Both the position numbers and the translations under genes were made by a program. The notes beneath the pieces were generated by a model. The model had not been told where the DNA came from. It saw only the letters and a program-made list of their open reading frames with translations, and searched no databases. DNA of 64,000 nt, taken from contig OX344763.1 in assembly GCA_947034895.1 (NCBI GenBank), positions 67,909,093-67,973,092 of the forward strand, read 5' to 3'. Position 1 is the stretch's first letter. Each line of letters opens with the position of its first letter. Shown here piece after piece: positions 4,175 to 63,215 of this stretch. The DNA comes from Rhytidiadelphus loreus (lineage: Eukaryota > Streptophyta > Bryopsida > Hypnales > Hylocomiaceae).

Positions 4175-4778
4175 AGTTCGAATCGAACTGATTATATCAC
4201 AATGGTCATTCAAGTTATGAATAAAGAAATACACTAATTTATTACCAAAATATTATTAAAAATATTCATGAGAAGTATAAGCATTGACATTAAAGAAAGC
4301 ATCCATGATACATCCAATCACCAAATATTTCTGAGAATGCATGAACGCCAAATCCTCCATTTCTAAATAGTATTTATATGTACATAGATTATATGAACTT
4401 TTGGATTTCAAATATACGTTATCATTTTAGAAATCATAATTAATTACATAACCTATTGGTTAGCTCGACTCGAGCTGATTCCACATCAGCTTATTCACAA
4501 TGAATGTCAGTATGAAAATATCTTCACAGTGAAATATATTCATGATCATTCTTATACATAGAATGAAGTATTCACAAAAATCATTGTGCACTGATATTTA
4601 GACAAGTATAATTCAACTCCTTCCTATCAGAAATCCCACATTAGTATTTCTTGCAATACTACCTCATATATTCCGATAACTGTTCTGTATATTCAATTAG
4701 CTCGAATCGAGCTCATTTTACAATCAATTAATTCTGGTTGGTCGAATACATTAGCAAAAACTTAGCTCGATTCGAGCT
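4175..4778. repeat. Family A palindrome cluster upstream of the DUF7869-type gene
   Basis: Four copies of AGYTCGANTCGARCT occur at 4175-4189 (AGTTCGAATCGAACT), 4462-4476 (AGCTCGACTCGAGCT), 4699-4713 (AGCTCGAATCGAGCT) and 4764-4778 (AGCTCGATTCGAGCT). Each is a 15-bp palindrome with a free central base. They lie in the 5' region of the minus-strand gene ending at 4130 and are the same word found in 11.7-18.0 kb. Paired changes keep the palindrome in the first copy (both arms C to T or G to A), which suggests selection for dyad symmetry. Confidence 0.85.
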
Positions 4779-5205
4779 CCCATCTCCGACATTTACGGAA
4801 TATGAAAACTGCAGCAGAGCCCTAGATTTAATCGTACATTTCAATTTCGGATTTCCCGGCGCAAACTCTCGAAACTCCTCTTGTATTTGATAGACAATGC
4901 TTTGATAGAAGATTCAGATGCGCGATTCATCACTTCATGATACACTACATCATACAATAACACATACAAAGTCTAAGGGAATTCTCATCTCACAAGATCA
5001 GTTCAATGACGTCAATGAACTGTCACTACTACAAACGTTAGGAGACGAAATTCTTAAACAACATTCAAAACAGAAAACGGAAACTAATAACTCTCAAATA
5101 GAGAGTTGAATGATTTACCAAGATCGCAATCCCACAAAGCGCCTGCTGCAGCAACTAGTCGGCTACAGAGATTCTCTACATACACTCTCCACACAACATC
5201 TGCAG

Positions 5206-5413
5206 CACTAACTGAAATGTGAGAATGAGAGTAGATAGTCTGCCATGGGAGCGAATACTAGCAACACAATTGAAGAAAAGATCATTTTCGGAATTCAACA
5301 TTGAGGCATCACTAACTGAAATGTGAGAAACAGAGGAGACGGCCTGCCATGGGAGAGAATACTGGTGGCAGGAATGAAAAAAAGGCCGTTTTCGGGATTC
5401 GGCATCGAGGTCT
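5206..5413. repeat. 104-bp tandem duplication
   Basis: Two adjacent diverged copies begin with CACTAACTGAAATGTGAGAA at 5206 and 5310, giving a period of 104 bp. Both continue with CTGCCATGGGAG and TTTTCGGRATTC. It may be a fragment of a once-coding sequence, but neither strand shows a recognisable protein. Confidence 0.75.
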
Positions 5414-6589
5414 ACCCCCACTCGTTTGCGGGAACTCCTGGGCGGGGGCGGGAACAGAATGGCGGCAACTGAACTCTCTGAAGTATCATTTTGAATGCTC
5501 AGATTTTCAGGGTATTTCAGCATAAAGGAATCCCATAATTCAAGAGTACTTTTTTACTACATAGCTAGAAAAGGGAATTCACTGTAGATGGTGCCACTAA
5601 AATTTTGGTTAATCATAGTTGTACAGATTCCCTCATTTATTGCTCAGGAAAGGGAATACCTCAATTTCTGTAATAAGAAATGTCCATTACTCCATTTGGG
5701 CTTTTTTTTTTCTTCTCTGTTTGTTATGATTGTTTAGGGTTTAGGTGTTTAGGATTTAGGGTTTAGGGTAGATAAATTGTGCTTTTCTAGGTTATTTATG
5801 GGTCTTACTTTTTCCTAATTTATGACTGTTTTGGACCATGCATCCTCCAATTTCATGCTCGGTACCACTGAAAAGCCCTCCATGAGATGTATACACTTGG
5901 TTTAGGGGCATTTGGATTTAGGATGTAAAGTTATTGCATATTGAAGTTTTTTTTACCACAATAAATTAGAAAAGTACTATTACTTTTATTTTATGTAACA
6001 ACAACCTAGGTCACTATAGAGAATATTTATTTAGAATACTTGTTAGTTTTGAAGAAGAATATTGTGTCGTGTTTTGTTGCTATAGTAACAATAAAAGTAA
6101 ATATACCTTGGAGTTATATATGTACCTACATACAATATGTGCCATTCAAGAATGTCCAAAAAATTTGAAGTGTTTTTTTGCTTTTTTAATAAATTACTTT
6201 ACATGTTTACTACAATTGTCTAGTTCTAGTTTTAGGTGGGGAAGTTCATCCTCATATCAAATGTGATTTAGTGTTCTTGTACCAATATTGAGCCTTACAA
6301 CTATTGAATCATAGAAGACGGTTCATATTTTCTAGAGCAATGGTAATGCTCATTTTCAATTTACAATGTCACACAATAGTAAAGAAATTCAAGAGTTTGA
6401 AAACCCCCCGTCATATACTTTGAATAATCTTGTAAACCCATGTTAGTATAAGAAACAAGTACTAGAATGAAAAAAACCTGTCATATACATTCAATAATCT
6501 AGTTAACCCATTAATTTCTTTTGGCAAAACTATTTTCTCTACATATGCTGGTTGATTGCTGGTATAAGTAACAAGTACTAGAAACAAGT
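5414..6589. other. AT-rich DNA without recognised gene
   Basis: Nothing coding is visible. A short run of telomere-type words (GTTTAGGGTTTAGG-like) lies near 5,735-5,770. The remainder is AT-rich with poly-T tracts. Confidence 0.55.
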
Positions 6590-6840
6590 ACTACCATCAA
6601 TTAGCAATAGCCCCTATCTTATATTAGATTTACCTGAAGTCAAGAACCATGCCTTGTTCAAACAACATAAAGTCACGATGGCAAAATGTTGGTTGATTGT
6701 TGGTATACACCACTTGTTCTCCTACTCTAACAAAAAAGTACTACCATCAAATTGTAATATTAGCCCCTATCTTATATCAGATATACCTGAAGTCAAGAAC
6801 CATGCCTTGTTCAGAACAACATAAAGTCACGATGGCAAAG
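6590..6840. repeat. 153-bp direct repeat next to the satellite array
   Basis: The block CCCCTATCTTATAT..CAGA or TAGA followed by TACCTGAAGTCAAGAACC occurs at 6611 and again at 6764, a spacing of 153 bp. Both copies run into AACATAAAGTCACGATGGC. It abuts the satellite array starting near 6,848 and may be its edge or an insertion site. Confidence 0.7.
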
Positions 6841-6847
6841 ATAATGA

Positions 6848-7722
6848 ACAAGTTGTAATTATTCCTACACTCACGAATCCCCAAAAATTTGCAATTGCCG
6901 GTCACTTTGAATGACCCTGGTCGTGAAATCAAATATTGGGGCAAGGACCGTGCTATGTACTTTAATGTCCAAAAAAATATAAAGTCATGAAATTCATGTA
7001 AAAAAAAATGTGGAAACATGATGTGCAAGTTGTAATTATTCCTACACTCACGAATCTCCAAAAATATGCAATTCGTGGTCACTTTGAATGACTTTGGTCG
7101 TGAAATCAAATATTGGGGCAAGGACCGTGCTGGGTACTTTAATGTCCAAAAAAATATAAAGTCATAAAATTCACGTAAAAATAAATGTGGAAACATGATG
7201 TGCAAGTTGTAATTATTCCTACACTCACGAATCTCCAAAAATATGCAATTCATCGTCACTTTGAATGACCTTGGTTGTGAAATCAAATATTAGGGCAAGG
7301 ACCATGCCAAGTACTTTAATGTCCAAAAAAATATAAATTCATGAAATTCACGTAAAAAAAATTGTGGAAACATGATGTGCAAGTTGTAATTATTCCTACA
7401 CTCATGAATCTCCAAAAATATGCAATTCGTGGTCACTTTGAATGACCTTGGTTGTGAAATCAAATATTAGGGCAAGGGCCGTGCCAGGTACTTTAATGTC
7501 CAAAAAAATATAAATTCATGAAATTCACGTAAAAAAAATTGTGGAAACATGATGTGCAAGTTGTAATTATTCCTACACTCACGAATCTCCAAAAATATGC
7601 AATTCGTAATCACTTTGAATGAGCTTGGTTGTGAAATCAAATATTGGGGCAAGGACCGTGCCATGTACTTTAATGTCCAAAAAAATAAAAAGTCATGTAA
7701 CTTAAAATGATGTACAAGTTGC
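6848..7722 (-). repeat. ~177-bp satellite array, about five units, minus orientation
   Basis: Units begin near 6848, 7025, 7200, 7378 and 7556 with CAAGTTGTAATTATTCCTAC and carry GGGCAAGGACCGTGCC and TTTAATGTCCAAAAAAATA. Read on the minus strand the unit matches the arrays at 19.06-21.19 kb and 55.19-55.73 kb: GCAC-ACATGTTTCC, then ACGTGAATTYCATGA, TTTGGACA-TAAA, GCAAG-YCGTGCC and a GAGT-TATGA block appear in the same order. Long minus-strand open frames inside the array are translation artefacts of the repeat and are not annotated as genes. Confidence 0.85.
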
Positions 7723-8565
7723 AATTTATCATTATTAAAGTATAGGACAAGGTGCTTGCTTTCATTTTCTACCATATGTCTACTAACTAATTGGACTTTA
7801 CGCTTATTTGAAATTTAGAATTAGAATTGTGCCATCTTTTCATTACTATGATTGAATGCATGCAAATTTAGTTTTAAAATTAAAATTGAGGAATCTTTTT
7901 AGTTTTCTTGAGATGTAATTGTTTTCCAACATACATAGTCTATTGAAAATTTTGTATACATATGTATATATAATCCCGTGGTGTAAGATTCTACGGTTCA
8001 ATTTAAATTTTTAGTATTTTGCACTATCTTGTTATTAAAGATATAAAGTCATTATTATTTTATATAATATATGGCCCTTTTCTATTAATTAATGTCAAAG
8101 AATGTTTATGTATAGAACATAAGTGCAAGTCGATGATACGTTGGACAAATTTGGAAATTCTACACTGTACTTCGGCCTCCAATGAACTTCTTTAGTTATG
8201 TAGAATTAGATCAATCATGGCACAGAACACTAGAAGTTAAGAATAATTCCAAGGGTCAATAATTCCAATCATGGTCGTAAGCCATTCGAAGAGAACGTTG
8301 AGTCTAACTCTTTTGAATTGTACTTCCTAGAATTTTTGTATAATTTCAAAAGTGCAATTAAATGTAAATGCAATTCAATAACATTTAGTACCTTTGCAAT
8401 TTTTAATCCAATAAACCACTAAATGATTTGTATAGTTTAGCCTTGAGGGGTTTAGGGTGTTCAAGTTTGTCTTACTCAAAATAATTTTAGAATCATATGA
8501 CGTTTTATACAAATATTTATACATAATAATTTGGTTAGGTATCAATAATAAGGCCCGTGCGGTTA
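7723..8565. other. AT-rich DNA without recognised gene
   Basis: No gene, RNA or repeat could be supported. The sequence is AT-rich and separates the satellite array from a short tandem duplication. Confidence 0.5.
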
Positions 8566-8684
8566 TAAATAGAATAAGTCCGTATAGCGTGTGTTCCTTG
8601 CAACACTAACCGAGTCCAGGTATAAAGAGAATAAGTCCCTATAGCGTGTTTTCTTTGCAACACTAACCGGGTCCAGGTATGTTT
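8566..8684. repeat. 57-bp tandem duplication
   Basis: ATAAGTCCSTATAGCGTGT is present at 8574 and 8631, each followed by TTGCAACACTAACCGRGTCC. The spacing is 57 bp. No function is apparent. Confidence 0.75.
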
Positions 8685-9689
8685 ACATTTGCAAAATTGA
8701 ACAAGGTGGATTGACTCCCTCGTTTGGGCTTACCAAGGGTGCATGTAAAAGAGAAGCCCATTGTTTTGGGCCGTTTTAGGATATAAGGTAGGTGGTTCAA
8801 AATCCGCCCCTGTTCTTCAGATTGTCCTGTAGGTAGCTGTAGAATGGATGTAAAGTAAACCTTGAATGGACCTCTTTACTCAGTTAATGAATTCAAGAAG
8901 ATTTTTTTTATAGTAAGAACCAATCATTGGCTGTGATTTTGCACATTTCTTTATAAGTCACAAGGGGACGGATTTTGGGACACCAATGGTCACAAATAGG
9001 TGCCTATGACCCATATCTTTGAAAATTTAGAACTAATTTATAAATGCTTGGATAAATATGAAACTACTTGTGTTGGCTTCCGCATCTACTTTTCTTTCTC
9101 TAAAGAATGAGCTAAGAATCATTTTGTCCCTAGAAACCTGTGAAAAAGGCGAATCAGCCCTTAAAGTGACGGTTTATGAGCACACTACCTTACTCTTGAC
9201 TCACCTTAACTAACTTGGGGCAAAAATGAATTAAAATTTTTGTGCGAGAACTAAATAATTCCAGGGTTTGCTCGTAGGAGGGGGTGAGTTCACCCTGGCC
9301 TGTAGAATCGGGGTAGGGTTTGGCGCGCACAAGGTTTAGGCTTCTACCTTGCAATTTCCTGGTTTCTACTCCTGAGTTGGATTTCCTTGCTTCGACCTTG
9401 GAATTTCTTGGATTCTACTCTTGCGTTTCATTGTTTCGTGCTTCTCCCAGCGTGTATAGGGAATATGCAGAATTGAGGGCTAGGGTTTGGCACGTAGGAG
9501 TTTAGTTGCTTGGAACTTGGAATTTCCGGCCATCTTCTCATGCGATAGGTTTCCTGGGTTTTTGCTTCTCTCCCCGTCTGTTGTAGCACTTTCGAGGCAA
9601 TTTCCAAGTCCCTTTTCCGAGGACTTTCTAGGTCACGCAATTTTGGCGGAGGTCTTCTAGCGGAGGTTTGCTAGCGATGCGGCCTTGTG
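8685..9689. other. Low-information DNA, possible element leader
   Basis: No convincing gene is present. Short open frames near 9,320-9,640 exist on both strands but show no recognisable domains. GC content rises from about 9,250 onward, which may mark the start of the family A transcription-unit leader ending in the donor at 11,586. Confidence 0.4.
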
Positions 9690-10980
9690 GTGGCGGTGCG
9701 AGTATGTGCGAGCAACCCTGAGGTACGTTTACTTCATATGTGATTTTGGTTCTTCCTTCTTGCTATTCATGGGTTCTCTTGGTTGGTTTGTAAAGTTAAA
9801 GCTAAGGAAGAATCGAAAAATTTCAACTTTGGGCTTCTTGGTTACTGATTTAGGGTGTTGGTTTGTGGGGACTTACTGGTTCACGATTGTGGCGTTGCAT
9901 TTTTGCTTTAGGGTGCTGGTTGGTAGGGACTTGCTGGTTCACGATTGCGCTAGCTAGTTTCCGATTCTTCTTGGACTCGTTCTGCTTCTTCTTCATTTTG
10001 TGTTCCTTTTATGAGTCGCTGTGTTTCTTTCTCGTTTTGGGTATACTTTGTTGCTTTTTTGGTATGCTTTGTTTTAGATTTAGACTGTCCTTTGTACCAA
10101 TCCCCCGGTTGGTTTTCGGTTTAGGGTTACAGATTTTGCCTGCTGGTTTTTTGTTTCCGCTATTGGTTTCTCAAGATCAAGCTAGAAATTCAACAGTAAA
10201 AGCTTAGAGCTTTGTACATTTTGCTTTGTTGGTTTCTGATTCTTGTTGGTTTTGGGGTCTCTTTGCTGGTTTGAGGTTTTGGCTTTACTGTTTACGATTG
10301 TGCCTGCGCTAGTTCTGGGTTACTCTTCACGATTGTGCCTGCTTGTGTTGGGTTTATGGTTCACAGTTTGCCTGTTGGTTTTAGGGTTCGGGTGCTGGTT
10401 CATTAATTCAAGCTATAAATTCAAGAATTAAAGCTTTCAGCTTCTTGCGTTTTGCTTTGTTGGTTTCTGATTTGCTTTGTTGGTTTCTGATTCTTGTTGG
10501 TTTTGGGGTCTCTTTGCTGGATTGAGGTTTTGGCTTTACTGTTCACAATTATGCCTATGCTAGTTCTGGGTTTACTCTTCACGATTGTGCCTACTGGTTT
10601 TAGGTTTCCGGTGTTGCTTTCTCAAGTTCAAGCTGAAGAGGGTTTATACTTTAGTGTTCACGATTGTGTCTGCTTGTGTTGGGTTTATGGTTCAAAGTTT
10701 GCCTGCTGGTTTTAGGGTTCGGGTGCTGGTTCATTAATTCAAGCTATAAATTAATGAATTAAAGCTTTCAGCTTCTTGCGTTTTGCTTTGTTGGTTTCTG
10801 ATTCTTGTTGGTTTAGGGGTCTCTTTGCTGCTTTGAGGTTTAGACTTTAGTGTTCACAATTGTGCTGGTTTTGTATTTACTCATCACGATTTTGCCTGCT
10901 ATTTTTTGCTTTAGGGTTCCGCATGCTTGTTTGAGGTTTATGCTGATGGTTTCTAGGTTTTTGTTTATTGGGTTTCGAAT
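9690..10980 (+). repeat. Degenerate T/G-rich repeat field
   Basis: The stretch is built from reshuffled modules such as TTCACGATTGTGCCTGCTGG, GGTTTTAGGGTT and CTTTGCTGGTTTGAGGTTT. A longer block (TTGGTTTCTGATTCTTGTTG and downstream) recurs near 10,228, 10,480 and 10,791. TTTAGGG-like words are frequent. The open frames it contains encode hydrophobic low-complexity peptides and are not believable proteins. It precedes the family A gene and could be its expanded 5' leader or promoter region. Confidence 0.7.
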
Positions 10981-11585
10981 TACCTACAATCAGATTTGAT
11001 CGCGTTGCATTGGATTTTTAGATTTCCAGAGTTGTTGAAGGGTTTGGGTGGAATAACGATTTACATTGTTGGATTTGTTTAAACTATAGGTTATATCTAT
11101 GCTGACATTGTGGAGTGCGGGTTGGAATTGATGCAGGAGTTTGGAAATCCTGTTCTTCAAGTTCTTTGTAGAGTGTGGATGGTCTTGGAAGGAGGTTTCG
11201 TAGACTTGCTTGTAGGTCATTGCAAGTATTACAACCTCGTCTTGTTGTCTCCGTTGTAATACCTATCATGCATGTTCAAAATTTTAATTGTTTGTATGCA
11301 TTCGTTGGAGGCTTCATTTGTTGTTTTCCATTGCAGTGCTACTTACTTGTTATTGAATGTAGTGAGTTTCTGTCTAGTGCTCCTCTAGAAGTAGTTGAGA
11401 ACTCATGAAGTTTCATTCGAATGTGAATGATGAAATTGAATAGCAGAGTTGTGACTGGAAACCATCGGCATAATTTGGAGTCTTGATCTTGACCATAATC
11501 AGCGAATTCGGCGAACGAGGGTTGAGGAAGGTCGGAGGAAGGTATTAGGAAGTTGTGAAGGAGGTCTCAACGGGAGTACAAAAAG

Positions 11586-12406
11586 GTAAAACATCTATAA
11601 ACAAAAAAGTATGTCAATGTCATTTCAGTTCGACGTCAAATTAGCATCAGTCGAACTGATTGACCATGAACTATAAGAATTGAAAGAGTTTATCATGAAT
11701 GAAATTTGTTAGTCATAGAGAGCAATAGAAGTATCATATCTAACCAGCTCGACTCGAGCTGATTTCTCTAACGGAGTAAAATCATTACACTATGAATACG
11801 TAGTAGAATAGAAAAAAACAAAGTAAGAAGCTCAGTGAATTTCAAAGCGTCACATTGAACAGGATGCCAAGTCGAATTAGCTCGAATCGAGCTAATTTCG
11901 AACTAGAGAAGAATAGGATATCTCTAAGAAAATTCAAGAATCGGCTGAAACCTCGACTGAAATTTTGACTTAATAAAGAATCCTGATCGAAAATAGGTAA
12001 TAGCTCGAATCGAGCTTACAAGTAACGTCCGAAAACCCGAAAAACAACAACGCCAGAGCTTGACTCGAGCTGTCCCAAACCTAGGTAGGAATGTGATAAG
12101 AGATCCCAAAGCTCGACTCGAGCTGTCTCAAACCTAGGTGGGAATGTGATAAGAGATCCAAAAGCTCGACTCGAGCTGTCTCAAACAAACGTAGAAACAA
12201 ACCTTAGCTAAAAGATCCCAGAGCTCGACTCGAACTAACTAATACCTAAACTAATAATCCCAGTCGATCAAAGGAAAAACTAGACAATCAATGAGAGTCA
12301 TGCTCTATTAAGGAAACTATTAGAAGTTCAATTAAAAAATAACAACCCCTAAGTTCGACTCGAGCTGATTGCCTACGGAATATTAATTGTCTCTGTCATC
12401 ATGCAG
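11586..12406 (+). other. Predicted 5' leader intron packed with family A palindromes
   Basis: A donor (AAAAG|GTAAAA, GT at 11586) and acceptor (ATCATGCAG, AG at 12405-12406) bracket this stretch, and the acceptor lies one base before the first ATG of the fusion gene. Inside are the palindrome copies at 11746, 11879, 12002, 12057, 12110, 12163, 12222 and 12352 (15 bp each), plus a looser AGTTCGAC...GTCGAACT pair near 11,628-11,663. Two of the units (12,057 and 12,110) also share a longer flank, CTAGGTRGGAATGTGATAAG, so local duplication helped multiply the word. The intron call is from sequence only. Confidence 0.6.
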
Positions 12407-13883: not shown

Positions 13884-14008
13884 GTAAGATTTTAGTTCAA
13901 CTCGAGCTGCCGCTAGCCTGATCTTATTGTGTTCTCATTTCTTCATTCCCGAATCATCTTGATTCGAGCTCAGAAGGTTGACATCCGATTCTGTGGTTTG
14001 ATATTCAG
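13884..14008 (+). other. Predicted intron 1 of family A fusion gene
   Basis: The donor is TGGGCG|GTAAGAT and the acceptor ATATTCAG|GAATTC. Removal joins two open frames in phase 0 (KWA to EFTKAM). A palindrome copy (AGTTCAACTCGAGCT, 13894-13908) lies ten bases inside the donor, and a half copy (TTGATTCGAGCT) lies near 13,959-13,970. The homologous family B intron is at the same protein position. Confidence 0.8.
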
Positions 14009-15361
14009 GAATTCACAAAAGCCATGCAAATGCGTTTCTCAATGATTGATGTGGCTAAATCGCATCAGAAGGCCAAGGCCAAGGACTCAAAGGGGGGGTT
14101 AGTGATAACAAATGAAATCAAGATTATCACCTCCCCCGATCATGTGTTCAACTTGTAGAGAGAAGTTATCTCAAGTGCTTCTCACGGTGAGCTCATTGAT
14201 GCAAATACGCTGAAGAAGTTCAATGTGCGGACGTCATGGAAAGCCGAGAATGGAATGCTCAACAAAGAGTTCTTCAAGTTCTTTGGTAATCTTACAAACG
14301 ATGACTTGGTTACACTTGCAAACCACATCCTGAATAGAATTGGAAGCAAGAGAAATCACGCTCATCCGAAGGTGACTGTCAAGCAAATCTCCTCAGTTCT
14401 CGACAGCTGTTACATTGCCAAAAAGTGGGTGGAGAGGCGAAAGCGAAAGCAGTACGTGAAGAAAGAGTTAAACAAACTTGATCCAACCTTGGGACTTCTA
14501 AATGCTGTTGGAGAACTTGTGCCATCCAAGTGGAAGGACTTCAAAAACAAGTACAATATAACATCTGCGACAATGAATGTCTTGCTTGAGCGTCCATGAG
14601 AGGAATACTTCTCGGAGGTCAAGCAAATTAAGTCCAAGAATAAATCCACTGAAGAGATCTTAGAGAAGGCTGCTGCATTCTTCAAAGTCTTCCTCCGAGA
14701 TCGCAAAATCTTTATTCCACCAACGGCAGTAGCTTACTATGCACCCTATGATATCGAGAAGGACCAACACACTGCTTGGCCGTCAAATGTTTACACTGTT
14801 GACATCGCGGCTGATTTCAGGCTAGGAGTCATTGACTTCCGCTTCATTCCGGGGGTACTATTAAAGAAGAGGGGGACAATCGCCATACTCTACTTCAACA
14901 CTGTAATGCAGTCATTGCAAGGGAAACGACAACCTCTACTAGAGGAGGTCCCGTCCTGGCTTTTCATTTGTGCAGATTTGATGGAGCAAACGCAGGTTTT
15001 AGCCTTCGTGCAAAGTCACGAGGTTCTGAACACATACAAGTGCCACTTTGCGGACTACATTCCTGGACAGTATGAGCGGATGGAAGACATGGCCTCCGCT
15101 AAAGCGAAATCTCACCACAAGGTTTTGCTGACCTTCCTACAAAATCCAGCATTTCCGATTGCTGGGAACATGTCTGAGACGTTCGAGGCCCCGGAGACGC
15201 TGGTTTTTAACAAACCTCGAGGGTACAATGAGTTAGAATTTCGCTTATATAATACCGAACTCCGCATGGAGTTCTATCTGTGGGTAGTGAATAAGTTTTG
15301 CACACCCGGCACAAGTGTTTTCTCGGTCTTTGCTGGAGGAAAGATAACATGTGCAGCTGTG

Positions 15362-15491
15362 GTATGTCTCTTTCTAACTAGTCAGCTCGAATCGAGTTGA
15401 GGTTCTCGTATTTGAATTCTTGATTTACTTATTGTACTAAGGCTTCTCGTTGATTGTGTACTCATGTTTTTAAATCTTCATGAACATGCAG
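15362..15491 (+). other. Predicted intron 2 of family A fusion gene
   Basis: The donor is GCTGTG|GTATGT and the acceptor AACATGCAG|ATGAGC, phase 0. It falls directly after the SAM-motif-like FAGGKITCAAV segment. It carries one family word, AGCTCGAATCGAGTT, at 15384-15398. Family B has an intron at exactly the equivalent codon. Confidence 0.8.
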
Positions 15492-50750: not shown

Positions 50751-51173
50751 AGTAGAAATTTTCAAAATTTCCGTAATGGGTAGGGAATAGGAAGCCTAAA
50801 ACCGGAAATAGAAATTAGAGGCTTTACGGAAAACCTTAAACTGTAATTAGGGTTACAGTCGGTTCCGGAAACCCTATCCGGAAACCCTAACCCTAATCCG
50901 GAAACCGGAAAGTTCCGGCCGAGTAGGCCCTAGGGCCTAGTCCGGCTAGGGAACTTGCGGGAACGCCAGGCCGAAAAGCTACTTAACCCCCGCTGTTTGC
51001 TTCATTGTCCCTCTTTCTCCGCGTGATTATCGCGATGGCGCTTAGTGAGTGAAAGTGTGGTGAGATAGGAACGCGTTAAGGAGAGAAGGGGAGGCCGGTG
51101 CCGATTGCACCGGAAAGTAGAACGGAAGATTAGCGGAAACTTAGCGGAAGTGAGTCGGAAGTGAGGATAGAGT

Positions 51174-53090
51174 ATGGCAGTTGTTATGGTAGGGCCCAGT
51201 GTACGGAAGTCAGGGATCACGGCCCGGATGATCAATCCGGAAATCTCTGAGAATCCGGAACACCACCACCAACTGGAGGATGACCTGACGGATATGGGGT
51301 GTCTGGGGTTTCTGAAAAGACCCTGGAGCATCCGGAGTGAGGAGATGATAGACGAGTTAGTCTATGGCGCTCCGAATCAGTACCACCTAACCATTAGAGG
51401 TCGTCCAAAGTCCTGGACAGCAGAGATATGGGCCGGAGTCTATTTCGCGTCCTCTAGAGGATCTGGATGGGCCGGGCGGACAGAGAAATTCGCCGCGGAT
51501 AGATTCCGGAACCCGGCGGATCCGAAGGAGGGATACACTGCATCCGACTGCCGGAACCCTAGGGACCAGAGACTCTTAGAGTTTCTGAGCCCCATCGTGT
51601 ATCCGGAAAAGCCCAGCCGGATTACAGTAACACTGGCAAACACAGTATTTGGAGCCTTAGGGGAAAGGGGGAAACCAGCCCCAAGACCAGTTAGCTGGGG
51701 GCTCATCATCCAGTCCATAGTAGATAAACTTTCCGGAAACCTGGTGGGAAAGAAATCCAGCCCCATCAGTCCGTACCTCCTCCACTTGTATCACAAGCAA
51801 GAGGTACTGAGTAGTCCGGAAGACATCATCTACCGGCAGGGAGATAGTTTACTCCGATACGGCCTACCTCCGAATTCGGATCCGACGGATGAGGAGCCGG
51901 AAGAGGACGTGAAGCCGGAACTGGAGCATGACTCACCGGAGAGGCACGAATCACGCCGGAAGAGCACAGACCCGGATTCAAGAGGAAAGAATCAGCTTCC
52001 GGATCCTGTTCCATCCCGGAACACTGATCCGGAATTGGATATCTTCGAGTCGACAATCTCCTGGCTGCGGAGTCAGAAGACTGCCAACGAACGGATGGCC
52101 ATCCTGATCCGGAGAGTCTCCACGGTGTTGAAGGTAGCAGACGAGACGGAGATCGTGGAGGCAATCAAGAGCAGACCGGATCCGGAGATGATCCGCCTGT
52201 TGGAGGGACGGATCCGGGCAGTAGAGGCGGAGCGCGACCATCTTCAAAACCGCGCAACGTGGGCGGAGAGGGAGATGCACACCGCCAACAAACGAGCGAC
52301 GGATGCGACGGAGCTGGTCCGGAAGTTGAGAGACCTAATCGACCCGCCAGCAGATATCATCACCAGATCCGCGCTCTGGAACAACCAGATGACCCGGGAA
52401 GGCCACATTTCCGGAACCAAGGTTGTGAAGATATTGGTAGAGTTCGAGGCGCGGATTGAGGTCGCATTGAAGGAAATGCGGCACTTGGTGGGCCACTTCG
52501 ATCCACTCAGCGGATTGGAGGAGTTTCCGGAGATACCCGGAGGTGAGTTTCCGGAGACAACTCAGTTGAACTTGGGAGAACGATTGTCTGCCCAGCAACC
52601 CGGAAGATCCTCGGGGCAGAAGGATATTACGGATGGGAGGAGGATTCCGGATCCGGTTCTATCGCCCCGGACTACCTCAGTGAACCTCTTCCCACCTCTC
52701 CAGGATCCCGCTGCAGACGTGACGGCGATGACGGAGGATCCGGTTGGGATTCAGAATCCGGCCCAGACCCATCCGGAGGAATTCACCCACATGCAGCAGG
52801 AGACTCCTCCGCGGCCGCCACCATCGACTCCCATCGAGTTCATTGATCTGGAGAAGAAGAAGGCTACCCGACGGAAGAACAGCAGCGATCCGGTGGAGGT
52901 TCTCGAGTCGGAGGAAGAGGAGGCAGTAACGAATTTGTCTTCCGAGTTAGAGTATGCGGAGACGGATCCGGGTCCGCCAAGGACCCGATCCGCAACCAAG
53001 TCCACCCCAACGAAGCAGATCTGGCCGAAGGTGCCGACCCGGATTTCGAAGGGCGGAACGTCAGCGAAGAAGGCGCGGAAGGGTAAATGA
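51174..53090 (+). CDS. Family C gene, copy 2, intact 638-codon frame
   Basis: The frame is open from ATG 51174 to TGA 53088. The N-terminal ~220 residues form a likely globular domain (KSWTAEIWAGVYFASS, SRITVTLANTVFGALG, SSPISPYLLHLYHKQEV) shared with copy 1 and, more distantly, with the family D gene. An acidic Pro/Glu linker follows (about 225-300), then a helical coiled-coil stretch (about 300-440, RIRAVEAERDHLQNRATWAE), and a disordered tail ending in a basic KKARKGK that could be a nuclear signal. No enzyme motif is visible. Codon choice is bent towards TCC-GGA and CCG-GA steps. This is the only large element gene here without a stop, so this copy may be young. Function unknown; gag-like or sequence-specific binding protein are the options. 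Confidence 0.8.
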   Translation: MAVVMVGPSVRKSGITARMINPEISENPEHHHQLEDDLTDMGCLGFLKRPWSIRSEEMIDELVYGAPNQYHLTIRGRPKSWTAEIWAGVYFASSRGSGWAGRTEKFAADRFRNPADPKEGYTASDCRNPRDQRLLEFLSPIVYPEKPSRITVTLANTVFGALGERGKPAPRPVSWGLIIQSIVDKLSGNLVGKKSSPISPYLLHLYHKQEVLSSPEDIIYRQGDSLLRYGLPPNSDPTDEEPEEDVKPELEHDSPERHESRRKSTDPDSRGKNQLPDPVPSRNTDPELDIFESTISWLRSQKTANERMAILIRRVSTVLKVADETEIVEAIKSRPDPEMIRLLEGRIRAVEAERDHLQNRATWAEREMHTANKRATDATELVRKLRDLIDPPADIITRSALWNNQMTREGHISGTKVVKILVEFEARIEVALKEMRHLVGHFDPLSGLEEFPEIPGGEFPETTQLNLGERLSAQQPGRSSGQKDITDGRRIPDPVLSPRTTSVNLFPPLQDPAADVTAMTEDPVGIQNPAQTHPEEFTHMQQETPPRPPPSTPIEFIDLEKKKATRRKNSSDPVEVLESEEEEAVTNLSSELEYAETDPGPPRTRSATKSTPTKQIWPKVPTRISKGGTSAKKARKGK

Positions 53091-53522
53091 CTAGGTTGCG
53101 TAGTTGGATTGTTAGTTTTAGTATTTTGTCTTCATCGCGGTTTTTCCGGATGTGGGACCCACTGATCCGGAATGCTAAGTAGTTCCGGATTTCTAGGAAA
53201 TTAACGGCTTCCCATTTTTCCCGGAACGGTCACTTGGCCGTTGTCCGGATTTTCAGCTGGCCGTTGGCCACTTTTTCTTTGGACCGTTTTGGTCGTGTTG
53301 TTTTGGTTTTTAAGGGCGGGCTGACTTGTGGCCTGTCATTCCATTTTGTGTCATTCAATCTGAGCACCCAAGAATAAACACCTTGGGAATCATTATCTTG
53401 CGTATCGCGTCTTGATTACTTGTGTGTGGGTGTATCCGGGAGAGTGTGCAAGGTAGGAATCCGGATTGGTTGGTATCCGGATCCGGCTGAAGGTGTCTTG
53501 CAAAATAGTTTAGATTGAACTT

Positions 53523-53935
53523 GAGGAGCTGCGTGCGGTGCCTTTAAATTGCTGGAACGGTGATCCGGTGGGATCCGGTAGCGGTCAGGGAGCTAATCCG
53601 GAACTCATGAGTAGTTTCGTGCGGAAGTCAACAGCCGCCAAGTGGAACATTCCCAAACCATCAGAAGGTCTGCCAACCTCAAGAGCGGTCGACAGCTAGG
53701 AAGTAAGTCCTTTAATTCCGGATTCCAACTATCCGCGGTTGTTTTGCAGTTGAGTTTAGTTTACGAGTGAGGAGCTGTGCGTGGTGCCTTTAAATTGCTG
53801 GAACGGTGATCCGGTGGGATCCGATAGTGGTCAGGGAGCTAATCCGGGAACTCGGGAGGAGTCCCGTGCGGAAGTCGGCAACCGCCTAGTGGAATATTCC
53901 CAAACCACCGGAAGGTCTGCCAACCTCAGGAGTAA
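53523..53935 (+). repeat. ~165-bp duplication, period about 246, in family C 3' region
   Basis: GAGGAGCTG(C/T)G begins blocks at 53523 and 53769, both containing GCCTTTAAATTGCTGGAACG, GGTCAGGGAGCTAATCCGG and GGAAGGTCTGCCAACCTCA-type text. TCCGG words recur in each. It is not coding as far as I can see. Confidence 0.8.
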
Positions 53936-54362
53936 GCAAAAGCTTGATCCGAAAAATAGCTGAGTGTTGTTGTAGTAAGGGCGGGTGTGGGTGTAACTCT
54001 GCGTGACCTACCTTCCGGGTGGCCACCCGGAATGTTGTGAGAGGGACCATCTTTCCTCCTTACCGGACTGAGAACTTTGAGGACGGATAGTTGTTTGTTG
54101 TTTAGGAGTTGATATGTGTGTTACTTGAGTGGTGATGTTCCCCACCCCTCGGAAAGAGCAAGTGAGGACCCTCTGAGGGTAAAACAGAGGTACCAAAAAC
54201 CGGTGTGACGGATAGTGAGAGTAGGAATCCGGATCAGGGAGGATCCGGATTTGATTCCGGAAGACAGTATTTCCGGAACTTGGGTTTGTGTTGTGCCGGA
54301 TCCTACTGCGGATTGTCATTTCCGGGTAGATCCGTAGTTCCGGACCCTTATCTATCGCGACA

Positions 54363-55189: not shown

Positions 55190-55730
55190 TACTGGGCTTT
55201 CAATTCTTAAACATTTAAAGGAATTTCATGAGACTACAATTTTGTGGACTTTAAAATACAGGGCAAGGTTCGTGCACCAATATTTTATTTTCACGTACTA
55301 GAAAGTTATTCAACGTGACCACCAATTATATATTTTTTTGAATAATTCTTGAGTTTAGGAGCACTTGCAACTTGTTCAACCTCTTTCCCATATTTCTTTA
55401 AATGAATTTCATGAGATTACAATTTCGTGGATTTAAGATATAGGGCAAGGTTCGTGCACGAATATTTAATTTTCATGTACTAGAAAGTCATTCAACGTGA
55501 CCACCAATTATATATTTTTTTGAATAATTCATGAGTTTAGGAGCAATTGCAACTTGCACAACCTCTTTCCCATATTTTTTTAAATGAATTTCATGAGATT
55601 ACAATTTTGTGGACTTTAAAATACAGGGCAAGGTTCGTGCACCAATATTTTATTTTCACGTACAAAGTCATTCAACGTGTCCACCAATTATATATTTTCT
55701 TGAATTCATGAGTTTAGGAGCAGGGTTGTC
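55190..55730 (+). repeat. ~183-bp satellite array, about three units, plus orientation
   Basis: TGGACTTTAAAATACAGGGC or the variant near it lies at 55,246, 55,428 and 55,611, with TTCATGAGATTACAATTT before and AGAAAGTCATTCAACGTG after. The order of landmarks matches the 19.06-21.19 kb array, so it belongs to the same family. It borders the left side of the hAT element. Confidence 0.85.
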
Positions 55731-55904: not shown

Positions 55905-56215
55905 GTGTGGGCGACTGCGGGTGTGGGCGCGTGCAGGTCTGCCTTGGGCGACCTCGGGTGGAAAAATTGAGGCGACTGCGGGTTTAGGGTGGAAGGCGAC
56001 TACGAGTGAAGGGGCGACTGCAGGTTTAGGCTTGAAGGCGACTGTGGGTGAGTGGGCGATTGCGGGTCAGGGGCTTTAGGGCGACTTCGGGTGAAGGGGG
56101 CGACCGCGACTTCGGGTACTGAGGGCGACCGCGGGTCCGACAGGTAGGGGCGACTGCGGGTCGAAGCAGCAGACAGCGACCGCGTGTTCCAGGGCGACCG
56201 CAAGTTCAGTTTAGG
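55905..56215 (+). repeat. Family F word cluster, left
   Basis: GGGCGACTGCGGGT and variants (GCGACTRCRGGT, GCGACCGCGGGTC) occur more than ten times at irregular spacing in a GC-rich island within AT-rich DNA. It lies downstream of the hAT transposase gene. Confidence 0.85.
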
Positions 56216-56732
56216 ATTTCAGTTTGGCATATTCAGTCTTTGAAGTAACACGTCACATAGGTGTTTTATAAGCACAGAATTAGGTGCTACGTTATATTGG
56301 GGTTTACAATTTACAAGTGCAAATAATAGAGCCCATGATATGTAAATTGGACAAACTTCTCTAATCCCAAAAATTCACCTAGTATAAGGCCACAATAATA
56401 ATGTCAATAACAATTATATTAATAAGTCATCGATATTGCTTTGAGGCGGACTTCAAATGTAGTTATACTTGCATTGCACTTTTATAACCTCGTTGCAGTC
56501 ATCACCTAACTGCCTACCAATTAGAACTCAACATATATTTTAAAACCGGTAATCTGTCCCTCACTCTAATATGCTCATATGCTTGATGAAGCATTACAAA
56601 ATCCTTACACATCAGGATGAAGGCTCAAAGCTTGAACTACAAAGATTTGCTACCTAACATATAAGCTAAAACCTTATAACTATAATTATAACTATAACTA
56701 TAACTATAATTATTGTCTACTTCTCTAGTACT

Positions 56733-59700
56733 CTAGTCACCAGGCGTGAATGTGGAATCGCTCGGCACCTCATCAGCATTAGGGTCTGTATCTTCGTAAG
56801 ACTTTTCGTTGCTCCTGTTGTCGCCCGAGCTTTCGATTTCATCATCTTCCCTTGTTACTACTTCCATTTGTACCTCACGCTCTACCTCTGAGTTCAAATT
56901 TCGAACTTCTGTATCTACACCACTTAACCCTTCAGTTTGCACAAGTCGTTTCGTGAGCCTCAACGCATCCGTAGTTCCATCCATGTTGAATGCAGGGTGT
57001 CGCCCTCCTCTACTTGATTGTCCAACATTCTAGGTGGAACATCGCGCTCCAATGGTACACCGTTGGACAATTTGAGTGGGTCGTTTAGGGTTTCGAGGTC
57101 CCCTCTCGTCAACCCTCCTAATATGCCTTTTCTGGCCTCTACTGTTGCGCCCCTGGATTCCTAATGATGATTCGCCAGGGCCAGACACGGATGAAGGTTG
57201 AATGGGTTGTGGAGCTGAGCCGTGAACCTCTTCATCAACCGTCCGTAGAGCACCTCCACGCACCGGTGGCCTTGTTGGTAGGGTTGGGATAGACCTCCTC
57301 ACTGTTGCCACATTTGTAGTCGTCTCTGGATTCAACGGCACATTCCGACTTCGATTCATAACATATGCCAATGGCACATCATCATCATCATCTGTAGTAA
57401 CAGTTGTTCCGAGGATAGATGCGTTCAATACAACGGGATTTGGTATTCCCTCGTGTACAACTTCATTGACTTCGATGGCCTCTTCTTCATGTTCGCTTCT
57501 CATTGGAACTTGTGCACTGCTTCTTAAATTGCAGGCCATATTTGGAGGTGAACTAGTTGATATTGGAGATCTAGCTTCTTCCTCTACGGGTGCCATGGGA
57601 ATAGGTACGCCTTTGTCATTGTTGTCGGGGGTGCTTTCCCTCCTCTGTGATGCATGTGCCAGCGAAATTGCATCCATATTGTGCACGACGTTCTGCGGTG
57701 GACTGCGTACAGGTGAATTTCCAGGAGAACATACCCATCGTCACTAAAGTCAAATGTATTCCCGTATATTGGTCGTGGAGGACTATGTGGCGGCCTAACC
57801 ATTGCATTCCAAGGATTGTTGCGCAACTGATCCTCTTCATCCCTGCGGTTCTCGCGTTCTCTCATAAAATCTGGAACAACGTCGTCTTCTTCCCCTGAAG
57901 ACAAAGGCCCATCACACTCGTCCTCATCGTCTCCATCTGCAAGCATCTGGTCGTAAAAAATGGCTGGGTTGTGTCCACGTTTTTGACGTTCGAGTTTGCT
58001 GTTCGCGTAGATATACACCAATGTCTCCGCCTTTGTCGTGGCCAAGCGGTTTCGCACTTTATTGTGCACAAAGGAATACATGCTCCAATTCCTTTCACAC
58101 GAAGATGCAGAGCACGTCAAACCGAGAATTCGCTTTGCAATTTTTGGAAGAGCATTGCCCCCCACACGATTCCACCATTGATGAGGCAATAATTGACATT
58201 CAATGATATCGGGAGCCTCATGTAAAGGATCGAATGCACCTGTCTTCTCTTCAAATTGAGTTAGCTCCTGCATTGCTTCCACCACTGACACGTTCAATGG
58301 TACGCTCAGTTTTCGTATGACTCGATTCAAAGCTCCCTTCGCGTAGCCATTGTTATGAATAGCCTCCACGTCACTCAAGTATGGATTTAGTAGTGCCCCC
58401 GCATAGTGTAGGTCAGTAATCATCAACTTCCAGCGAGCATCAAATTGTTTCTCATATCGTGTTGCCACCACTGGATCAAGGAAAAATGGAGCATTCTTGA
58501 GAGAATAAATGTGCTCCTTCAAGGCTGTCATCATTACTAAAGCTTTCGGCATTGCCGGGACTTTTCCATCAAAATGACGAAGACAAAGCAGCACGGGCTC
58601 TACCATATGGAGGAAATTGTCGCATTGAACCCAAAACTCTTCTGAACGGATATCTTGCCTTGCAAGTTTGGCCTTGCCCATAATGAAATGTCCATTTCTG
58701 CGGTTTTGCAAACTCAACTCGAACGTCATGTATGTCTCATCTAGTGTCACGTTGTGCACTGCTTGCTTGCAATCTACCAAACGATCAATCATCAAGAAAT
58801 TTGTGGCAAAACGTGTTTTGCTTGGAAGTCTCAACACTTTGTTTGGTGAAAATCTCCGAAACAACGCCAAAGTATGTTGGTATTTCTTGATGAACTTCAC
58901 AATTGATGAAGCCTTTTTTACCAACTCCTTTACTCTCTGATCCTTTCCCCAGTCTTCTAAGAGTAAGTCCAAAATGTGTGCCGCACAACCCTACCTATAA
59001 ATGTGAGGGTACCTTTCTTCCAACTTTGCCATTGCCCCCGTCATGGCTGCAGCATTGTCCGTACACAATTGCACAACGTTGGTAGGCCCAACTTCCTCAA
59101 TGTATCGTGCCATCGTCTCAGTCATGTAAGATATATCCTTCTTCTCCCCAATACTATCCACTGATCCCAAAAAGACATCCCCGGCGGGACATACCAACAT
59201 CATATTTATTAACGGCCGCGAATTAGTATCGGACCAACCATCTGAACAAATTGTCGCTCCATACTGACTTATTGAAACCCTCATCCGCTCCGAGACCATG
59301 GCTTCAACCGATGCCCTCTTAACATCTATCATTTTTGTGCGAATCGCATTATACGGTGGCGGTTGGTACACGAATCCAACTGCTGCAGTTTGTTTAACAG
59401 CATTCACGAAGGCCAGGTGGCGCACAACATTAAATGAAATGTTCGCCTCATAAAAGAAAGAAGCCCACAACCTATCCAACTCTTGTTTGCAGCCCGTTTG
59501 TAATGATTCATCCATGCTTCTTTGCCGAGAAACAGATGGCATGTTCCTCCTTCTCTTAAGCGTTGTTCCAGTAGAATCTACTGAATCAGGCGTAGGATTT
59601 GGTCTTGCATTTGATTCAAAGGGATTGAGAGACCCTTCTTCTTCGACATCCAACGCAGGTGCGACAATAGACTCTGCAACATTAACTGGTGCATCATGTC

Positions 59701-60007
59701 TAGTCGGTGCATCATACATCTCTTCGTAACTCATGGACCTTGGAACTTGCCCCTCGCCAGTCCGAAACTTTTCTCGTACAATTCTAGGGATCTCCTTACA
59801 ACGCTCCGATGTAGTCGAGCCGCCACAGCCAAAGTGAATCAATGCTCTCTTTCGTACAAATGCTTTGCTCCACCCACAAAACACGCATTTTCGAGCATGG
59901 GGGGAATTATCAATTGGGGTACACGGTACTAGCCAAGGGTCCCAATCCTTTGTGGACCTCCGCGTATCATTCATGGTCCCCCCCCTCCCAACACCTTGTC
60001 CAGCCAT
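56733..60007 (-). pseudogene. hAT transposase (BED, DUF659, hAT dimerisation), broken
   Basis: The likely start is ATG 60007 (MAGQGVGRGG), although the frame is open from 60124. A BED-type zinc finger (CVFCGW ... ALIHFGCGG) follows, then a DUF659-type catalytic region (ATICSDGWSDTN, GPTNVVQLCTDNAAAM, GCAAHILDLLLEDWGK). The C-terminal hAT dimerisation domain (TCSASSCERNWSMYSFVHNK) is near 58,060-58,130. A TAG at 58991 splits the frame between the ERYPHIYR and GCAAH segments. A frameshift near 57,745 moves the reading into an acidic, Ser/Pro-rich tail (57,745-57,030), and a TAG at 57030 separates a last acidic piece ending at 56733. hAT transposases cut and paste DNA and make 8-bp target duplications. 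The long acidic tail is unusual for the family. With three disruptions this copy should be inactive. Confidence 0.85.
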
Positions 60008-60249
60008 GTAGTAGATCAACACTGGGTCTTCAAAGAAAATGACTACAATAATCACACTAATACTATGGAAGATGTAATGACAAAGCAACCCGCTTAGAGT
60101 GGTCTTGTAAACCCTTCTAAACACGGTTGTTGCCCTTCGAAGAAGTTAAACGTCCGCATGAAGCCTCTTTCGAAGGTCCAAGACAAGAGTTTTATCAACG
60201 GAGCCAAGGTGATAAAACAAGGGGTACCCCTAGAACTTTATACAAGAAA

Positions 60250-60480
60250 ACTCCTTGGACCCGCGGTCGCCCCATGAGAGAATGTGGGTCCAAAAACCTG
60301 AAATAAGTCAGGTGATGGGCGACTGCGGGTCCAAGATTGGGCGACAACGGGTCCAAGAGTGGGCGACAACGGGTCCAAGAGTGGGCGACTGCGAGTCCAG
60401 GAGTAGGCGACTGCGGGGTTAGAAGTGGGCGCCACGGGTCCAGAAACAGGCGACTACAGGTCCAGGAACGGGCGACTGCC
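60250..60480. repeat. Family F word cluster, middle
   Basis: GGGCGACTGCGGGTCCAAG and close variants repeat about eight times (period near 21-24 bp), starting with one inverted copy (GACCCGCGGTCGCCCC). It lies between the start of the transposase gene and the end of the second gene. Confidence 0.85.
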
Positions 60481-60956
60481 ATTTGTTTGGATAATTCTTG
60501 CATCCCCTGGGGTAATTTGGGGCCTATAATTGAAACTATGAATTTAGAATTTCCACAAAAAAAATAAGCCTTGAAAATAAAAAATTCTAGTGTTTGCCCT
60601 GGAGTGGCAATGAGTAGGTCAATTCACCCTAGCCGTGACAATTGCTCTGAACTTCAATAACAAGTTCTTTTCCAATCCGGCAAGTTTTGAATTTTCCTTT
60701 TTTTTTAATTCTCTTTTAATTCCTAAAGTCCGAACTCCCAAGGTCATTTTCCTGCCAAAATTCCTAGAATATTCAAGTATTCACAACATTGCAAACATAA
60801 ATAACCAAAAATTCATATCTATATTTATGTACTCTTGTCAAGGAACTACATAGAATTCAATGTGCTTGCATTGGAATGTTCAAAATGGATAATATCCTTT
60901 TATATATACATAAGATGGAATATACATAGTCCTCAAAAATGTGCTAAAAATGAAAA

Positions 60957-62564
60957 TCATTCAACATCCATTTTGGCCTTTTCTTTGCGGTTATGAGCCT
61001 CACGTTCCATCTCATACAAGACTTTCCTACCTTCCAACTGCAAATTCCTAAGGTATCGGTCATCCTTCCCCAACTTCTTTTCCAACCAAAATTGCTTGTA
61101 TGATTTTTTAAACTTCAAAAGCGCCTTCAGTGCATCCCAATGTTCTTCCAATTTTGGATCCAATGACAAAGAAACCCCAAGCTTCTTTTTCAAGTCAACT
61201 ACTTCCGTAAGAGACAATGTTTGTTTAGTAGCCACGTCTTTCCAACCACACATTTCTGCAACACGATCAAGGGGGGCTTTGTCTTTTAATGCTTTCAAGG
61301 AATTTAATCTTGATCGTGCTTCTTCCACCCCTCGCTTCTCCAAGTCTATCTGATCTTCCTCCAGCTTGCATGCTTCCATAATTTTGGCAAGCCGTTCTTT
61401 CGCAAACTCATTGCTAGAAGAACTAGATCCTCTAGCATGCCGAGAAGAGAATCTAAGGTAAAATGCTTCCAAGTCTAAAATCTTTGTTATTTGCGTTGAC
61501 AAAAGAACTTGCCGACTTTCAAGTTCAGCACGTATTGTATTCACAATATCTCCACTCAAAGTTTGGGTTTCTTGATTGCGAAACTTCTCACATTCTAGAT
61601 GCTTTTCATCCAACTCATTTAGAAGCTTCTTGAGTTGAGCTTTGTAAACAACTTTGGTGTCCAACATTACTGTGTCAGGGACAGTTCCATCTTCAACGAA
61701 TTCCTCACTTCGGTACTTGTCATCAACACAATCCAATTGGAACAAAGAAGGCTTCACATCTTCTTCTGTTTCCATCTCTGTCCAAAAAACATCATCTTCT
61801 ACTTCTTGCATGCATGCAAGTACACACTGCAAAACTTCGTCTTCTTCAGTGCGAGGGACTGTAATCGGATTCACCATAGCAAGAGGCAAAATATCAAGAT
61901 TTTGTGGTTGCCTAGCTGGTTCACCCTCTTCTTCCATTCTCGGGGGAGGTAAATTTTGTGAAGTAGAAGCCACCATTGCCATGTTTTGGGGCTCCATTGA
62001 AGGGTCTTCACCAAGGTTGTCTTCCTCTCCCGAAGATGAATCAGATGACGTCCAATGAAACTGCTCATCGAGCACTCCTTCCTTCAAGTTTTTCTTCTGG
62101 CCTAGCCCTTCACGTGGATTGGCAGATAGAGCCGCCTTTGGAATGTCTTTTGTCGGTAGAAGGCGAGCATGCTTCACTCCCTTGATTGAACTCCAATCCA
62201 CGCTTCGAAACAAAATGAGTTCCGCATACACCATTGCACATATGAATTACGGGACTTCGCTCCTGGGCACTGAATATGTGCCATACAAGTATCGATAAAT
62301 TTCGATACAACGTTGCACAAATGCATCATTACGGCATGGATGCAAATTGGCCATATTGTTATGCCGATTCGTGTAGTGCCGATGATAGGGGAATAACTTG
62401 TCGATGTGGCACCACCCCACGAAGGACTTACAAGTCTTGGCGGTCCAGTGGCCCGTAATTCGATCCCAACATCGGTAGGCCGCACACACTGGGTCCAAAA
62501 GGATGCGTCGTTGCCTAGGGTGCATGGCTCCTTTTGCCTTGGTCTTCTTCTTGTGGTCCGCCAT
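60957..62564 (-). pseudogene. Second gene of the hAT element, coiled-coil protein (one in-frame stop)
   Basis: ATG 62564 (MADHKKKTKAKGAMHPRQRR) opens a frame that continues in phase past a TAA at 62247 to the stop at 60957, about 535 codons. The N-terminus has a basic start and a Trp/Cys/His-rich region (CWDRITGHWTAKTCKSFVGW, then NNMANLHPCRNDAFVQRC) that could be a small DNA-binding fold. It is followed by an acidic linker with SSDSSSGEED and a C-terminal coiled coil with KLKALL-type heptads. I do not recognise the family. It is transcribed in the same direction as the transposase and lies between two word clusters, so it is probably an accessory gene of the element. Confidence 0.6.
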
Positions 62565-62834
62565 AGGAGATGCTCTCGAGTCTCGAGATTTGGGGCAAGG
62601 AATCTAAACTTAACCGTAAACCGCAAAGTATTATCTAGCTAAACTTAACCCTAAACTGCAAAGTATTATCTAGCAATTAGTGAGTGATGGAGTAAAATCA
62701 AGAACATGAGCCACATGTAAGTGAAACTCAAAACCCAAGCTCTCGGGCACGCAATCAGCCACTGTAAAGTAGGTGAAAGGCAGTACGCAGCAAGAAGGGA
62801 AAGTAGTGAAGTCGGGTGGGGAGACAGCTAATTA

Positions 62835-63215
62835 ACCCGCAATCGCTCTGGGGTGAGTGCGGGAAGGGGCGCGTACAGGTCTGAGAGCGACCACGGGTAG
62901 GGCGACTGTGGGTCTAAGGGGCCGACTGCGAAGGCGACTGCGGGTAGGGCGACTACGGGTCTGGGGCTACTAGGGATGGGCGACCGCGGGTCGAAGGCTA
63001 TAGAAGTACTGGGGTCCTGGGCGACTGCGGGTCTGGGGCTACTGGGGATGGGCGACCGCGGGTCGAAGGCTATAGAAGTACTGGGGTCCTAGGCAACTGC
63101 GGGTAGGGCGACAACGGGTCTGGGGCTAGTGGAGATGGGCGACCGCGTGTGGGGCACCACAAAGTAATTTTTGGACCCCTACAGTGGGGCGACCGCGGGT
63201 GGTCGACTGTGGGTA
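62835..63215 (+). repeat. Family F word cluster, right
   Basis: GGCGACTGCGGGT, GGCGACCGCGGGTCGAAGG and GGCGACAACGGGTC repeat through this GC-rich island. A longer unit (GGGTCTGGGGCTACTGGGGA and following) appears near 62,960, 63,030 and 63,117. It lies upstream of the second hAT gene. Confidence 0.85.

Follow-up and report, generated by a model that had tools for sequence, protein, structure and literature searches.

Family-private short words in neighbouring mobile elements of a moss genome

Introduction

Why should neighbouring mobile elements each carry many copies of a short DNA word that nearly disappears at the element's own borders? The question is raised by a 64-kb stretch of Rhytidiadelphus loreus DNA (contig OX344763.1 of assembly GCA_947034895.1, positions 67,909,093 to 67,973,092; hereafter the window), which is 41% G+C and crowded with mobile elements. 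An initial annotation, made from the letters of the window, had assigned one word to each of six element families, A to F, and had proposed that unrelated element classes converged on a code of self-recognition resembling that of Arabidopsis VANDAL elements and their VANC proteins. We find that the words are nearly private to their families and in excess over chance, that the words of C and D and the core of a seventh word exceed synonymous-codon shuffles of the reading frames that contain them, and that four families form two homologous pairs whose words keep a core and differ around it. In our interpretation these patterns may amount to a self-recognition code.

Results

Words and their zones

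The word-bearing zones are listed here, those of the word clusters without strand. The borders of C' are approximate.

4175-4778: four A words (0-2 mismatches), just upstream of a leftward DUF7869 gene
11746-12366: eight A words forming a leader cluster, upstream of the rightward gene of A
21543-26596: D zone, 19 GCTTNAAGC words (6 in the leader, 5 in the reading frame, 8 in the tail)
26867-31805: E words of the CGTCGGAA/CGTCCGAA type, which are not palindromic and sit mostly in tandem and inverted repeats
40831-44090, minus strand: element C', word AACCGGAT/ATCCGGTT, nested in B, within its FCP1-like part
44708-49745: B words TATCCTCGANTCGAGGATA (0-5 mismatches), in the leader, introns and one stretch of open reading frame (ORF; 45083 and 45203)
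50864-54344: C zone, 33 TCCGGA words (3 in the leader, 17 in the ORF, 13 in the tail)
55910-63214: F words GGCGACYGCGGGT, in clusters at 55910-56205, 60318-60483 and 62835-63214

Within the window nearly every site of a word lies in the family to which it belongs. With up to two mismatches allowed, all 16 sites of the A word AGCTCGANTCGAGCT fall in two A zones that make up 12% of the window; with up to four, 15 of the 16 sites of the B word are in its element (12 in B and 3 past the C' insertion) and the other is in C. The D word has 19 of its 20 sites in D, the E word CCGTCGGAA all seven in E, and the F word, at up to one mismatch, all 25 in F. For C the initial annotation had given TCCGGA; this hexamer is less private (33 of 46 sites in C) than its extension TCCGGAA (30 of 34), and it is not enriched in C' (6 sites against 4.6 expected). 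The seventh word, AACCGGAT/ATCCGGTT, which the initial annotation had missed, occurs at 14 sites, 11 of them in C'. The nesting of C' in B provides the cleanest case of privacy: B words flank C' on both sides and none lies within it, and the C' word occurs 11 times inside, once beyond one side (40125), never beyond the other and twice in C. The perfect palindrome ACCGGT was rejected as the C' word, having no exact site; the C' word proper, AACCGGAT, is asymmetric.

Since knowledge of the words guided the drawing of the zone borders, these counts have binomial P values that are too good, and we do not rely on them. A scan that ignored the words took the most over-represented 6- to 8-mer of each zone and compared it with 60 Markov simulations of that zone. 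The top k-mer of every originally annotated zone was the annotated word or a piece of it, the exception being E, where it was a close variant, CGTCGGAA; in C' it was the new word. None of the 60 simulations reached the observed top k-mer in any of the eight word zones, and two control zones stayed within the null, namely positions 1-4100 (2/60) and the gypsy-type retrotransposon genes with integrase domains at 34394-38244 (8/60). The stated positions and near-privacy of the six annotated words are borne out. The long words carry the case more than the k-mer scores do. For A, 12 sites have 0-2 mismatches where about 0.07 are expected, and background is reached at about 4 mismatches; for B, 12 sites have 0-4 mismatches against about 0.05, with background at about 6 (in these profiles the C' word was counted on one strand only). 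Among short exact palindromes D stands out (GCTTNAAGC, 19 against 0.13 expected), as do A and C, with little in B.

Words within coding sequence

C, C' and D are laid out alike: in each, a single long reading frame, open now or formerly, stands between a leader and a tail.

51174-53090, plus strand: C ORF, 638 amino acids, no internal stop
41974-43413, minus strand: C' ORF, 479 amino acids, homologous to C, no internal stop
22702-25494, minus strand: D reading frame, 931 codons, 15 stops including the last

The stops of D, whose start was placed by eye, are mostly TGA and TAG, and a single frame reads on over 2.8 kb. By eye, the D and C proteins look like coiled coils; a distant relationship between them was considered and rejected (hhalign probability 0.1 percent).

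Synonymous codons were shuffled within each of these frames, keeping protein and codon usage (2000 shuffles). TCCGGA occurs 17 times in the C ORF against a mean of 4.1, the core ACCGGA/TCCGGT 9 times in the C' ORF against 2.2, and CTTNAAG 11 times in the D frame against 2.2; no shuffle reached any of these counts, and the words stand in all three frames. The full D word, GCTTNAAGC, occurs 5 times in the D frame against 0.22 (0/2000) and uses two frames. Something therefore acts on the DNA word, not on the protein. The core of C' is not enriched in the C frame (5 against 2.8, 238/2000).

Preference for noncoding DNA differs by family. Coding blocks hold none of the 12 A sites, 2 of the 12 B sites and 2 of the 11 full C' words, whose core ACCGGA does lie inside the ORF, as against 17 of 33 words in C and 5 of 19 in D. 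The initial annotation had placed words in leaders, introns, tails and codons; those of C and D do lie inside codons, and those of A and B avoid coding blocks.

Two homologous pairs with changed words

The initial annotation treated the families as unrelated classes that had converged. This view is weakened, since A is homologous to B and C to C'. The C and C' proteins are 27% identical over 415 columns (8e-38), and their words have CCGG in common with different flanks. Of 25 mapped word positions, 6 coincide between the two to within one nucleotide, where chance gives 1.0 (1/2000); we do not use this coincidence as proof, because protein conservation confounds it (137 of 439 aligned codons are identical).

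Between A, at 11.5-18.4 kb on the plus strand, and B, at 50-38.8 kb on the minus strand, homology extends over several exons (tblastx 6e-55). Their exon limits were set by eye, and their introns are GT-AG in appearance.

13894-13970: two A words (13894 and 13956), in the first intron common to A and B
14010-15363, plus strand: A exon with a predicted beta-class DNA methyltransferase fold (52 database relatives; predicted models and fold searches), two in-frame stops
15384-15398: one A word, about 20 nucleotides into the second intron common to A and B
17104-17739, plus strand: A exon with an FCP1/NIF-like domain (PF03031, 5.3e-9 for 17104-17586; 19 relatives), one in-frame stop
46646-47971, minus strand: B exon homologous to the methyltransferase-fold exon of A, four in-frame stops
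40157-40633, minus strand: FCP1-like part of B past the C' insertion
1803-4145, minus strand: DUF7869 gene, in a single frame, with one stop codon dividing it into two open stretches

The A and B words share the core TCGANTCGA and differ outside it, and in the two introns compared both elements carry words: the counterpart of the first A intron has B words at 48135 and 48019, and that of the second has three, at 46620, 46542 and 46390 (the last with 5 mismatches). Only parts of the A and B leaders are tandem. An ORF at 38839-39771 contains a short stretch resembling 18290-18364, suggesting a further downstream part common to both elements. The DUF7869 gene next to the leftmost A words (PF25273, 8.5e-33 for 1803-2468 and 2.9e-5, just under the cut-off, for 2472-4145) is possibly the other gene of element A, the link being the common word.

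The protein of the A/B pair

By predicted models and fold searches, the A/B protein has a beta-class DNA methyltransferase fold, matching the beta-class amino-methyltransferases CcrM, M.BceJIV and M1.HpyAVI; the predicted model of one relative, P0005, is also among the bases of the assignment. The fold-bearing protein and the FCP1-like domain probably belong to the same gene. Judged from sequence, methylase activity is doubtful. The catalytic motif [DNS]PP[YFW], sought in the looser form [DNSE]PP[YFWL], occurs nowhere in any of the 52 relatives; the presumed catalytic stretch reads D[FL][RKQ], with its D kept, in 33 of them, and the other 19, some of them short pieces, have no match. The FCP1-like domain also has an altered motif. 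FCP1/NIF proteins have their catalytic residues in the motif DxDx(T/V), and in the A exon D-L-N replaces D-x-D; among the 19 relatives 13 have DLN, one has DPN and five lack the stretch. CcrM targets GANTC, and the core of the A and B words contains GANTC. Given this target and the shared predicted fold, the core may be a CcrM-type site.

Other searches with the A protein were negative within their scope: no viral-contig relative was confirmed among 19 pattern matches, Pfam gave nothing convincing for 15 members of the alignment (best 0.0013, for a family matched by two members), and the best PDB sequence scored only E 0.15 against the profile.

Dyad symmetry

Most of the words had been described as palindromic, and this holds, exactly or nearly, for A, B, C, C' and D, whose words are mostly not in tandem; E and F words are not palindromic and are largely repeat-borne. 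The further claim that symmetry survives base changes is unsupported in general and stands for D alone, at sites with up to two mismatches. When half-sites were shuffled, the 59 such D sites gave 10 cells both changed and symmetric against 2.4 (0/5000), with no excess in A (2 against 1.0), B (3 against 4.2), C (0 against 1.5) or C' (ACCGGT, 0 against 5.3). The symmetric variant GGTTNAACC occurs three times in D and nowhere else in the window, ACTTNAAGT three times in D and three elsewhere, and three further variants once each in D and two to three times elsewhere. D sites with two mismatches are by themselves no more frequent than expected (25 against 30), and symmetry at the base adjoining the exact words is not significant (10 of 19 against 6.7, 1540/20000).

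Discussion

Proposed binding sites of family-specific proteins

We hold it an even chance that the words of A, B, C, C' and D are binding sites of family-specific proteins, in a logic like that of VANDAL elements and VANC proteins though not as members of that group. Each word would be bound by a sequence-specific, probably dimeric protein, most likely encoded by the same family, and the many dispersed sites would let that protein coat and recognise its own family. Coating could keep the family expressed or mobile, the likely benefit being anti-silencing or activation. Reader proteins would then co-evolve with their words, and homologous pairs with words in the same places and changed in sequence are as predicted by such co-evolution. 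For A and B the candidate reader is the methyltransferase-fold protein.

As described in part of the VANC literature, VANC21 binds YAGTATTAY motifs in introns, intergenic DNA and terminal noncoding DNA, VANC6 motifs differ from these, and the motifs form tandem repeats (PMC5735166); the string 'palindrom' appears nowhere in the main text of that paper. The likeness to this system (PMC5735166, PMC10398659, as far as these accounts extend) lies in short, family-specific motifs enriched within the element and in related elements that differ in their motif. It is closest in the layout of A and B, with words in leaders and introns and few in coding blocks. Whereas VANC motifs are described as tandem and noncoding, the words here are mostly non-tandem and palindromic or nearly so, and the C and D words and the C' core are found also in codons; for C, C' and D, where word cores occupy coding sequence in all frames and the flanks (in C and D) are not alike, the parallel drawn in the initial annotation is loose. 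We do not file these elements as VANDALs because the sites are mostly not in tandem and no VANDAL-type (MuDR) transposase is among the Pfam matches of 20 ORFs, a part of those in the window. Dense short words for self-recognition, also inside genes, are likewise known as bacterial DNA uptake sequences; as portrayed in the accounts drawn on here, these mark whole genomes for uptake, are not private to an element and work by an unrelated mechanism (PMC2346458, PMC1939737). A search of titles found no precedent for the layout or its proteins, which is no proof that none is in print.

A number of observations are difficult to reconcile with family-specific binding or reduce its force. The sample is one copy per family, all from the window. 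The A, B and D copies look inactive, because their genes carry stop codons. Among 7998 candidates scored, none is a relative of the C protein at E 0.001, and in Pfam that protein has only a sub-threshold match. TCCGGA reaches only 2.7-3 times expectation in the C zone. CCGG itself is in excess in both coding frames (42 against 25.2 in C, 20 against 12.8 in C'), the C word is weakly enriched in the C' frame (5 against 1.5, 19/2000), and the full C' word is rare there (2 against 0.1, 4/2000); the coding signal of C and C' may for these reasons concern a broader CCGG motif. Two further control zones lie slightly above the Markov null (0/60), 8700-11500 with a score (L) of 6.7 and the hAT gene stretch with 7.1. 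Scores near 7 are weak evidence, and the score alone is thus not decisive for the left-hand A zone (L 6.8) or for B (L 8.8). The covariation of half-sites in D is not predicted by independent half-site binding. Flanks of A words are clearly more alike than those of random positions (8.85 against 7.66 of 30, standard deviation 0.24) and those of B slightly so (8.00 against 7.56, standard deviation 0.28), and some A leader words are tandem.

Alternative explanations

The main rival, which we regard as a real possibility without expecting it to be right, is that the words are sites bound by a transposase for transposition. In Ac, as outlined in one account, multiple AAACGG repeats in the terminal 200 bp are bound cooperatively by the Ac transposase (PMC3260210). 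This explanation suits F and E well.

57587-60145, minus strand: hAT transposase gene with DUF659 and a hAT dimerisation domain, interrupted by one in-frame stop

F is a hAT transposon, with PF04937 (DUF659) at 7.5e-28 for 58994-60145 and PF05699 at 2.1e-5, above the cut-off, for 57587-58990; a second gene, at 60957-62234 (425 amino acids), has no Pfam match. The F words surround the two genes in clusters at both ends and between them, 24 of the 25 in one orientation, within tandem arrays of 22- to 72-bp units. They resemble the Ac repeats in being short words repeated around a hAT transposase gene, and differ in being longer, in standing also between the two genes and in that a simple end search identified no terminal inverted repeat; for F that simple matching, which took in target duplications at inexact borders, gave word matches only, nothing convincing. 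The E words lie largely within 295-bp tandem and inverted repeats whose arms are mutually inverted. Both sets look like ordinary transposon end repeats, for which transposase binding is the account we prefer, and the VANC parallel is consequently unnecessary for E and F. For the other families the fit is poorer. The C and D words span the whole element, codons included, and the A and B words stand in internal introns; for C, C' and D a simple end search, with exact borders uncertain, gave no convincing sign of terminal inverted repeats or of target duplications. In CACTA (En-Spm) elements the TNPA protein reads repeated motifs near the ends, with a link to methylation. An element protein reading repeated end motifs would be the likeness here, and the difference is that the words of the window are also internal; no CACTA transposase is among the Pfam matches of the 20 ORFs scanned.

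We think it unlikely that the words are bound by a host factor of transcription or chromatin, whether exploited by the element or silencing it. The leader and intron placement in A and B is compatible with regulatory sites, but a single host factor would predict neither a different word for each family nor changed flanks around a kept core in homologous pairs.

Action of the words in RNA, as hairpins or by pairing between transcripts of the same family, seems to us very unlikely. With their flanks, A and B words are predicted to form hairpins of 10-11 bp (-10.7 and -12.0 kcal/mol) and D words weaker ones (-4.1 kcal/mol), and D has its symmetric double changes. The C and C' words tested have no predicted hairpin (0.0 kcal/mol), however, symmetric changes do not rise above shuffles in A, B, C or C', and introns are normally removed.

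Least probable of all, and hardly to be expected, is that the words are functionless by-products of duplication or biased mutation: three A leader words do sit in a 53-bp tandem repeat (12053-12186), E and F words are largely repeat-borne and the A flanks are more alike than random, but the sequence around C and D words is no more similar from site to site than that at random positions, and the excess over synonymous shuffles extends to all frames, an excess with which word-directed mutation bias would be compatible.

Wider implications

Returning to binding by family-specific proteins, the most far-reaching form of the proposal is that several element classes in one genome carry a private word code over the whole element, kept at the DNA level even in coding sequence, read by element-encoded proteins and shifting in concert as families split, the A/B reader being a pseudo-enzyme of methyltransferase fold linked to an FCP1-like domain. 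We advance it tentatively and think it improbable as a whole. If true, plant-like mobile elements would use family-private recognition words as a strategy more generally than the Arabidopsis VANDALs alone suggest, and the reading frames of C, C' and D would clearly exemplify selection for a DNA word imposed on coding sequence. The A/B pair is a natural experiment, with homologous proteins and introns and two words, in which co-evolution of reader and sites is directly testable.

Other features of the window

In-frame stops interrupt frames that are otherwise kept at 22702-25494, 14010-15363, 46646-47971, 1803-4145, 57587-60145 and 34394-36961. With 17104-17739 included, 25 of 27 such stops are TGA or TAG, a bias that suggests decay of methylated cytosines.

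Three satellite arrays of 176-182-bp units lie between the elements, at 6849-7697, 19136-21184 and 55214-55722. The first is inverted relative to the second and about 72% alike, and the third looks related by eye. The satellite-bearing stretch 5200-11500 has strong k-mers of its own, and Arabidopsis-type telomere-like repeats are also present in the window.

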